40,514 nt of DNA from a virus. This document shows positions 5,731-38,915 of this stretch, one piece after another. Each line of letters opens with the position of its first letter. Position 1 is the first letter of the stretch. The DNA is taken from the IMG/VR virus record IMGVR_UViG_3300046513_000272, positions 1-40,514 of that record. One strand, 5' to 3'. The notes beneath the pieces are model-generated. The model was not told where the DNA came from. It made no database searches and worked only from the letters and a program-made list of their open reading frames with translations. The position numbers were made by a program, and so were the translations under genes.

Positions 5731-5776
5731 GATATTACTAAACGGTAATGACGGGCGTCAACACCATTTGGTAATA
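5731..5776 (-). promoter_or_regulatory. leftward early promoter PL with two repressor operators
   Basis: On the minus strand, -35 TTGACG (5756-5761) and -10 TAATAT (5732-5737) are 18 bp apart. The operator ATTACTAAACGGTAAT (5734-5749, palindromic ends ATTAC/GTAAT) covers the -10 region. A second operator-like element, read ACCAAATGGT on the minus strand, sits just upstream of the -35. The same arrangement, inverted, occurs at PR (6621-6663). It should drive the operon from 5695 to 317. Confidence 0.85.
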
Positions 5777-5802: not shown

Positions 5803-5827
5803 AAAAAAAACCGGCGATCAACCGGCC
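5803..5827 (-). terminator. possible leftward terminator of the repressor transcript
   Basis: Read leftward, a short CCGG/CCGG stem (5822-5825 and 5811-5814) with flanking G-T pairs is followed by eight T. The stem is short, but the position after the repressor gene and before PL is sensible. Confidence 0.4.
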
Positions 5828-5906
5828 TGAACGTACGTACGTTGCGTATCTGCATCGTGCGCAGCAAAGGGCTCAGCACACGAGAAATCTAAGAAACTGA
5901 AAAAGG

Positions 5907-5922
5907 CTGTATATTTATACAG
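5907..5922. promoter_or_regulatory. LexA (SOS) box
   Basis: CTGTATATTTATACAG fits the CTGT-N8-ACAG LexA consensus with an AT-rich spacer and a following TA, close to the strongest E. coli SOS boxes. It lies 75 bp upstream of the small rightward ORF at 5998 and inside a region otherwise free of genes. A second such box occurs at 38001-38016. The host LexA presumably binds both. Confidence 0.85.
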
Positions 5923-5997
5923 TATTTTTGTGTAGGATATTTCGTACAGAAAAGTTGCGATGCGCAAAGGCCAGCGCGATCGCTTGCGGGGTGAGAA

Positions 5998-6150
5998 GTG
6001 GAACAGTATTTCAGAGAGATGAAGGAGGCTCTCAGGGCGATGAGCCCCGAGGCACGTGCAGAGATGTTGAAGCTAGCGCAGGCGATGGCGAAAAGGCATC
6101 CTGCGCAGGCGCAGCCGTTGCTACGACTGGTGAGCGGAGCCCGCCGGTGA
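5998..6150 (+). CDS. 50-aa SOS-controlled small protein, candidate antirepressor
   Basis: The frame starts at GTG 5998-6000 (weak GGGGTGA upstream) and ends TGA 6148-6150. It encodes an amphipathic, helical, charged peptide beginning VEQYFREMKEALRAMSPEAR and continuing AEMLKLAQAMAKRHP. It runs convergent with, and overlaps by 30 bp, the repressor gene on the other strand. The LexA box at 5907-5922 is the only obvious control element. Because the repressor lacks a self-cleavage domain, a LexA-controlled antirepressor (as with Tum of phage 186 or Ant of Gifsy phages) is the expected missing part. That function is inferred from context; I recognise no family. Confidence 0.6.
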   Translation: MEQYFREMKEALRAMSPEARAEMLKLAQAMAKRHPAQAQPLLRLVSGARR

Positions 6151-6585
6151 TTCTTCGCCAGCTGCCGATTCGGCTGCAGTTTCGACCAGGCTCTTACCCA
6201 TGTCTGAAGCCTTGCGATAGAACGTGAGCAGATCTAACTCCCGCTGCGTCACATACACAAGAGCCATTTTCTGAGGCTCGACGTTTTCCACAACAGTAAG
6301 CTCAGGGCGTAGGGGGCGAAGCGTCGAGAGCGCCGCTGGTTCCTTCTCGGTCCGTAACGCCTGGCGGGCCGCTTCTTCGTCCTCGATGTCGAGCCACCCG
6401 GCCGGCACTTGGCATTTCGCCTCGAGCTTGCGCGCCTTGCGTTCACCGAAAGACTTGGTGCGCAACAGCCCTGAGACCTCACCTTGGTTCTCGCCGGTTT
6501 CATCCACGAACCGCGCTTGAGAGCCGTCATATCGCTCCCGGATTAACTGCGCCAGCCGTGCGCGTCGTATGTCTTGAATTTCCAT
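6121..6585 (-). CDS. phage repressor, HTH only (CI-like without LexA-type peptidase domain)
   Basis: The product is 154 aa. Residues 1-65 form a lambda-repressor-like HTH: 'RRARLAQLIRERYDGSQARF', 'ENQGEVSGLLRTKSFGERKA' and 'LEAKCQVPAGWLD'. This layout is typical of phage XRE repressors in Burkholderiales. The remainder, with VYVTQRELDLLTFYRKASD, is short and helical; no S24 Ala-Gly cleavage site or Ser/Lys dyad is present, and full CI proteins are usually above 200 aa. It lies between two inverted early promoters bearing the same operator, so it is the immunity repressor. Induction therefore needs another factor, probably the small SOS-controlled ORF that overlaps its end. Confidence 0.82.
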   Translation of the reverse strand: MEIQDIRRARLAQLIRERYDGSQARFVDETGENQGEVSGLLRTKSFGERKARKLEAKCQVPAGWLDIEDEEAARQALRTEKEPAALSTLRPLRPELTVVENVEPQKMALVYVTQRELDLLTFYRKASDMGKSLVETAAESAAGEESPAGSAHQS

Positions 6586-6604: not shown

Positions 6605-6663
6605 ATTACTAAAGAGTAAATCACCAAATGGTATTGACCAACCTCATTACCGTTTAGTAATAT
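6605..6663 (+). promoter_or_regulatory. rightward early promoter PR and three repressor operators
   Basis: TTGACC (6634-6639), an 18-bp spacer and TAATAT (6658-6663) make a strong rightward promoter. Operators: ATTACCGTTTAGTAAT at 6646-6661 is the exact reverse complement of the PL operator. TCACCAAATGGTATT at 6621-6635 abuts the -35. ATTACTAAAGAGTAAA at 6605-6620 lies towards the repressor gene and may control its own promoter. Three sites resemble lambda OR1-3. Confidence 0.87.
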
Positions 6664-6671
6664 GCTTTCCC

Positions 6672-6935
6672 ATGGACAAATTACTCGCATATTTGAACGG
6701 CCTCGATAAGGCAGCGCGCCCTGCGTTCTGCACTGCATGTGGTACGACAGAGCGCTATCTGCGCAAGGCCATCAGCGCCAAGCAGCAGCTCGGCGCCCAC
6801 CTCTGCATCAACATCGACAGGGAGTCGCGCGGTGCTGTTCGCTGCGAGGACTTGCGTCCGGACGTCGACTGGGCCTACCTCCGGGGTACGGCTAAGTTCG
6901 CACCAGGTGAGCCGGAGGGTGCCGCCGATGCGTAG
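6672..6935 (+). CDS. Cro/YdaS-like helix-turn-helix regulator
   Basis: This 87-aa protein resembles the YdaS antitoxin/Cro family: LLAYLNGLDKAARPAFCTACG, then the recognition segment TTERYLRKAISAKQQLGAHL, then CINIDRESRGAVRCEDLRPD, a very typical YdaS ending. It is the first gene after PR, the Cro position. ATG 6672 lies only 8 bases after the -10 hexamer and no Shine-Dalgarno is visible, so the mRNA is probably leaderless. It should antagonise the repressor by binding the same operators. Confidence 0.85.
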   Translation: MDKLLAYLNGLDKAARPAFCTACGTTERYLRKAISAKQQLGAHLCINIDRESRGAVRCEDLRPDVDWAYLRGTAKFAPGEPEGAADA

Positions 6936-7288: not shown

Positions 7289-7756
7289 ATGGAATTGCGT
7301 GAAGCAAAACTCAAGATGATCGCAGCCGTCCGGGGTGGCTGGGAAGTTGCTGCCCCTTACCTCGGCATGTCGGTGAATGCGCTGCGCAACCGGGTCTATG
7401 GCGTGAAAGACCAGAAGCTGTCGGACGAAGATTCCCTTGCCCTGCAGCTACTGTCGGACACCAAGCACTACGCGGAAGCGATCGCTGCGGCGTCGGGCGG
7501 CATCTTCGTCCGGTTGCCGGACGGCGGCGAGCACGAGAACCAGGATCTCATGAAGAAGTTCAACGAGCTGTACACCAAGCTCGGGGACCTCTCGCGGGAC
7601 TTCACCGCGGCCATCGCAAACGATGACGCGATCGACGCGCGCGAGCGGAAGATCCTCGAGGAAGACGCACGCAAGATGCACCAGACGCTGACCGAGCTGC
7701 TGGGCCTGATGTTCCTGGTCTACGGCCAGCCCGGCGACGGAGGCAAAGATGCGTAA
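7289..7756 (+). CDS. YmfL-like phage regulatory protein
   Basis: I start this gene at ATG 7289 (GAGGG upstream), giving 155 aa; the longer frame from 7121 runs over the opposite-strand gene. 'MELREAKLKMIAAVRGGWEV' and 'AAPYLGMSVNALRNRVYGVK' are the recognisable start of the YmfL family (e14-type prophages), where a HTH reads the early region. A long helical tail ('AIDARERKILEEDARKMHQT') follows. Its place, after Cro and before the replication genes, is that of CII-type regulators. The next gene overlaps by 8 bp. Confidence 0.75.
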   Translation: MELREAKLKMIAAVRGGWEVAAPYLGMSVNALRNRVYGVKDQKLSDEDSLALQLLSDTKHYAEAIAAASGGIFVRLPDGGEHENQDLMKKFNELYTKLGDLSRDFTAAIANDDAIDARERKILEEDARKMHQTLTELLGLMFLVYGQPGDGGKDA

Positions 7757-38867: not shown

Positions 38868-38915
38868 GACTCATAATCCGTTGGTGCCGTGTTCGACTCA
38901 CGGGAGGCCTACCAA
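38868..38915 (+). repeat. attR core
   Basis: This is the second copy of the 48-bp attachment repeat, with T at 38910 in place of C at 242. Here it is only the 3' part of the tRNA; the D arm and acceptor 5' strand are absent, so it is not a second tRNA. Confidence 0.95.

Follow-up and report, generated by a model that had tools for sequence, protein, structure and literature searches.

The immunity region of the prophage described here encodes a short repressor without a self-cleavage domain and, tail to tail with it, a 50-aa protein whose gene is preceded by a perfect LexA box. We consider it likely (a probability of roughly 0.75) that this small protein is an SOS-induced antirepressor that acts on the C-terminal domain of the repressor and turns on the lytic genes without repressor cleavage; the protein-protein binding, its target and the contribution of antisense transcription are parts of this scheme that we infer. 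The analysed window is the whole 40,514-nucleotide stretch of IMG/VR virus record IMGVR_UViG_3300046513_000272.

The prophage and its immunity region

The window holds a whole prophage, flanked by 42-bp direct repeats (attL and attR, 200–241 and 38868–38909), with the left repeat lying inside the tRNA-Met gene that serves as the integration site and an integrase gene (317–1426; PF00589) close to it. The closest cellular match is Massilia sp. IC2-278, so the host is probably a member of the Oxalobacteraceae, and soil bacteria related to Massilia seem to be the hosts of this dormant virus. The immunity region begins at the left with leftwards-transcribed genes, followed by operator-like repeats (ATTACTAAACGGTAA and ACCATTTGGTAA; 5734–5774), a leftward terminator, the LexA box and the rightwards-transcribed small gene; to its right are the leftwards-transcribed repressor gene, a second set of operator-like repeats (TTACTAAAGAGTAA and TTACCGTTTAGTAAT; 6606–6661) between the repressor and Cro-like genes, a YdaS-type Cro-like regulator that is the first rightward gene beyond the repressor (6672–6935, plus strand; PF15943, E=7.5e-10), and a CII-like regulator (7289–7756, plus strand; PF06892, E=1.9e-13; phrog_101, E=3.4e-27). 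The presence of matching repeats on both flanks suggests that they act as repressor operators.

The repressor (6121–6585, minus strand) is 154 aa long, with a helix-turn-helix at approximately residues 1–66 and a C-terminal domain at approximately residues 95–154. It has no Pfam match whatsoever and no S24 peptidase, in agreement with a sequence-only reading of this DNA that had described it as a 154-aa repressor lacking the S24 part and had placed the box, the small ORF and the repressor at the correct coordinates. Matches to PHROG repressors are weak and confined to residues 1–74. A structure prediction for the whole repressor (pLDDT 50) was set aside as too poor for use; the C-terminal domain is predicted, at low confidence, to comprise two strands and two helices.

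Some relatives that share this DNA-binding domain carry a different tail. In locus L020 the first 66 residues of the repressor are 74% identical to those of the window, but are followed by a Peptidase_S24 domain (231 aa in all; E=1.9e-19), and neither a LexA box nor a small ORF is present at the locus. Both are likewise absent from L050, whose repressor has an S24 domain (E=5.7e-11), and from L051, which is S24-type by motif only. Self-cleavage and the LexA-controlled small gene therefore replace each other within one DNA-binding lineage, which supports the earlier proposal that the small gene operates in place of self-cleavage.

The small gene, its LexA box and the antisense arrangement

The small gene (5998–6150, plus strand) starts with GTG and encodes a 50-aa protein predicted to form three helices (mean pLDDT 85). 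It was previously uncalled and, as first pointed out in the sequence-only reading, ends within the repressor gene on the other strand; the tail-to-tail coding overlap is 30 nt (6121–6150), with the LRLV of the small protein antisense to the HQS-stop of the repressor. That reading recognised no family for the ORF, and we found no match above noise in Pfam, NCBIfam, PHROGs, PDB sequences or fold libraries, and none by tblastn against 50,697 phage records. Scans of IMG/VR and GTDB genomes identified twelve relatives, on IMG/VR contigs and in a Massilia genome, with 72–98% identity to the small protein, giving 13 loci together with the window. Conservation in related phages had been set beforehand as a test on which the proposal could fail; the ORF, its GTG start and the LexA box are kept in all 13.

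Across the non-overlapping part of the gene in these 13 loci the median dN is 0.12 and the median dS 1.34, a ratio of about 0.085 that is rough because dS is near saturation for the distant pairs. Diversity outside the overlap is 0.13, 0.12 and 0.37 at codon positions one, two and three, respectively. By these measures of coding constraint the small ORF is evolving as a protein, which argues that the protein itself probably matters.

The LexA box CTGTATATTTATACAG (5907–5922, plus strand) is one of two perfect CTGT-N8-ACAG sites in the 40.5 kb, and a search with the 20-nt LexA consensus allowing up to three mismatches returned only these two sites in the window and none in 100 shuffles. A perfect box lies upstream of the start codon in 13/13 phage and prophage loci, at a distance that varies from 59 to 75 nt. 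When the loci are aligned on the box, identity is 100% over its eight arm bases and 87% over its AT-rich core, and the flanks are much less alike (37% identity upstream and 36% further downstream). The box overlaps the -35 region of the putative small-gene promoter, and a TAGGAT-like -10 hexamer follows at a fixed distance of 10 nt in all 13 loci (probably TAGGAT at 5933–5938, plus strand, in the window, from the box-based alignment); beyond the -10 the leader to the start codon is only ~36% identical. The small gene is thus, as far as sequence can show, under LexA-type control, and LexA would be expected to bind at the box and DNA damage to induce the gene. The earlier identification of a LexA box upstream of the small ORF is borne out by its perfect match and by its invariant arms.

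An intrinsic-terminator-like hairpin followed by U8 (5808–5828, minus strand) is situated beyond the small gene, 79–99 nt to the left of the LexA box, where it would end the leftward repressor transcript; similar hairpins are present in 7/13 loci. This position places the entire small ORF within the probable transcription unit of the repressor, so that an added antisense effect is plausible: the repressor transcript, if it ends at 5808–5828, probably runs antisense across both the small gene and its promoter. No rightward terminator is present between the small ORF and the repressor. Antisense cover could plausibly damp leaky expression of the antirepressor during lysogeny, and convergent transcription could plausibly interfere with that of the repressor after SOS induction.

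Pairing and inputs in the wider family

We searched 394 genomes of Oxalobacteraceae by profile for the small protein and, separately, for the repressor, and both searches land on adjacent convergent loci. The repressors at these loci have only the C-terminal domain in common (consensus L-V-Y-V-T-x-x-E-L-x-L-L-T-x-Y-R-x-A-x-x-x-G-K), with a different DNA-binding domain in several. In the repressor-only search a tail-to-tail small ORF accompanies 24/26 loci with the C-terminal domain and 1/14 without it (Fisher p about 1e-7), the lone exception being the small ORF of L052, which is below the score cut and was spotted by eye. For loci outside the training of the small-protein profile the corresponding numbers are 4/6 and 1/14 (p=0.014). 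The domain is rare in the order at large, occurring in five of 399 genomes. Because the pairing outlives replacement of the DNA-binding domain (e.g. L036, L042, L078 and L102), it is the C-terminal domain that is pointed to as the partner.

There are variations on this arrangement. In L053, L054, L076 and L077 a tandem pair of C-terminal-domain proteins precedes one convergent small ORF. Other Oxalobacteraceae genomes (L107, L108, L100, L106, L112, L117 and L040) carry orphan homologues of the small protein that have no adjacent repressor of this type, are often two or three in tandem and end in LRLV-x-G-G; some members of the family may therefore do something else. It is doubtful that the LRLV ending arises simply from lying antisense to the repressor stop, as orphan copies without an overlap keep it, with the caveat that the search profile itself favours matches ending in LRLV.

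The inputs to the small gene differ between loci. In two distant pairs, at L102 and L113, the small ORF is preceded by a perfect LexA box, where ~0.06 would be expected (P=0.0016), but the majority of the distant homologues of the pair lack a perfect box within 500 nt. SOS control is therefore not a common property of the family, and we reject a universal LexA rule; judged from the distribution of boxes, LexA control is a recurrent but non-universal input. In L037, L038 and L044 there is no LexA box, and the small gene has an Arc-like ribbon-helix-helix gene (PF03869) upstream in divergent orientation, with a palindrome visible between the two. L052 also has a PF03869 gene divergent from its small ORF; the LexA box at that locus sits downstream of the Arc-like gene, and we have not assigned it to control of the small ORF.

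A proposed switch and its known relatives

In the lysogen, the short repressor would occupy the operators on both flanks and host LexA would be bound at the small-gene promoter, with the leftward transcript of the repressor running antisense over the small gene up to the terminator at 5808. Upon DNA damage LexA would be cleaved, the promoter at ~5907–5938 would fire, and the 50-aa helical protein would be made; its binding to the C-terminal, presumed oligomerisation domain would remove the repressor from its operators and turn the lytic genes on. Convergent transcription into the repressor gene would probably strengthen the switch.

The same arrangement could be read as mainly an RNA-level switch, in which the repressor transcript is blocked or silenced by SOS-induced convergent transcription and the ORF plays a secondary part. 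The genes are indeed tail to tail with no rightward terminator separating them, and the leftward terminator past the small gene would make the transcripts fully overlapping; but the low dN/dS, third-position bias and kept start codon, set beside a leader that has drifted beyond the -10, are those of a protein under constraint, and distant relatives conserve the protein pair and not the promoter, so we regard this as quite improbable. It is also unlikely that the small protein instead assists or modulates the repressor (as a co-repressor or an antitoxin-like stabiliser) or has another SOS function, such as host takeover. The orphan and tandem copies apart from such repressors, and the Arc-like inputs in L037, L038 and L044, favour a role of this kind, whereas a LexA-induced co-repressor would boost immunity at the time of SOS, and a repressor that cannot be cleaved would then have no damage input; moreover, the small protein is absent from the S24-type relatives. 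That a random LexA-like site happens to precede a random ORF has a negligible probability: a perfect site does turn up roughly every 30 kb in these genomes, but conservation of both box and ORF in 13/13 loci despite diverged flanks leads us to reject a chance origin.

Beyond the antirepressor reading we offer, tentatively, a broader one that we consider possible but doubtful: the C-terminal domain and a mini-antirepressor derived from, or mimicking, its helical hairpin could form a plug-in module that poisons oligomerisation, with swapped DNA-binding domains, various inputs (LexA, Arc-like repressors and others), and antisense transcription as a second lock. The small-protein profile gives C-terminal domains higher scores than any composition shuffle, and in hhalign comparisons it scores 15.2 against them, exceeding all 150 column-shuffled controls (maximum 12.9). 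The C-terminal domain of the window alone is not significant against the profile (p=0.71), and the similarity may reflect generic helix patterns. Slight as it is, this similarity to the C-terminal helical hairpin suggests, rather than proves, competition for the oligomerisation surface.

Repressors that are short and non-cleavable are common, often with no recognised damage input. In this prophage the input lies in a place that annotators overlook, an uncalled GTG-started 50-aa gene at the repressor stop codon, within the probable repressor transcript. Tail-to-tail position together with the common C-terminal domain provides a simple route to finding such antirepressors, and the natural swaps (an S24 tail or a short tail plus antirepressor; LexA or Arc-like control) make the evolution of induction signals directly testable.

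The Gifsy phages of Salmonella have small GUG-started antirepressors, encoded in a LexA-controlled unit, that inactivate non-cleaved repressors (GfoA, GftA and GfhA with GfoR, GftR and GfhR in Gifsy-1, -2 and -3, respectively; PMC3121763). They have in common with the window a short non-cleaved repressor, a small GUG-started LexA-controlled gene, and Cro- and CII-like neighbours, but the Gifsy antirepressor genes are found next to dinI, several kb away from the repressor and not in the immunity region, whereas the small gene of the window abuts the repressor gene tail to tail and is preceded by a LexA box of its own. The small protein has no similarity to the annotated 73-aa ORF beside dinI in Gifsy-1, a candidate for the antirepressor gene, and the C-terminal domain of the window repressor aligns by hhalign to GfoR in the corresponding place but not significantly (P=0.06). 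The TF-smORF modules of linear plasmid-like vibriophages (Qtip and others) also use small antirepressors with an input that varies by phage, as in the family described here, but their repressors are autoproteolytic and the smORF is activated by a divergent transcription factor, independently of SOS (PMC10432266). The anti-immunity antirepressor of phage N15, to judge by the titles of references cited in PMC10432266, belongs to the SOS regulon and acts on a non-proteolytic repressor, and to that extent resembles the window.

Phage 186 Tum is likewise a LexA-controlled antirepressor that inactivates a non-cleavable CI, and the sequence-only reading was right to name Gifsy Ant and Tum as precedents for this logic. 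Tum is a 146-aa protein annotated as DinI-like and encoded some 6 kb away from cI in an SOS operon of its own, and as no local alignment with the 50-aa protein was found at E<=100 we reject membership of the Tum family; 186 CI has no similarity to the window repressor. Lambda CI-type SOS switches differ in their Peptidase_S24, which is absent from the window repressor and present in L020 and L050. The immI region of P22 comprises Arc and Ant, and is similar in having an Arc-type gene to the distant L037, L038 and L044, where Arc-like genes are divergently upstream of the small gene, but in the window and its close relatives a LexA box is used instead, and no family match links the small protein to P22 Ant. 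The logic of the switch is thus already known from Gifsy and 186, whereas the protein family, its tail-to-tail position inside the repressor transcription unit and its exchangeable inputs appear to be new, as far as the open-access literature shows.
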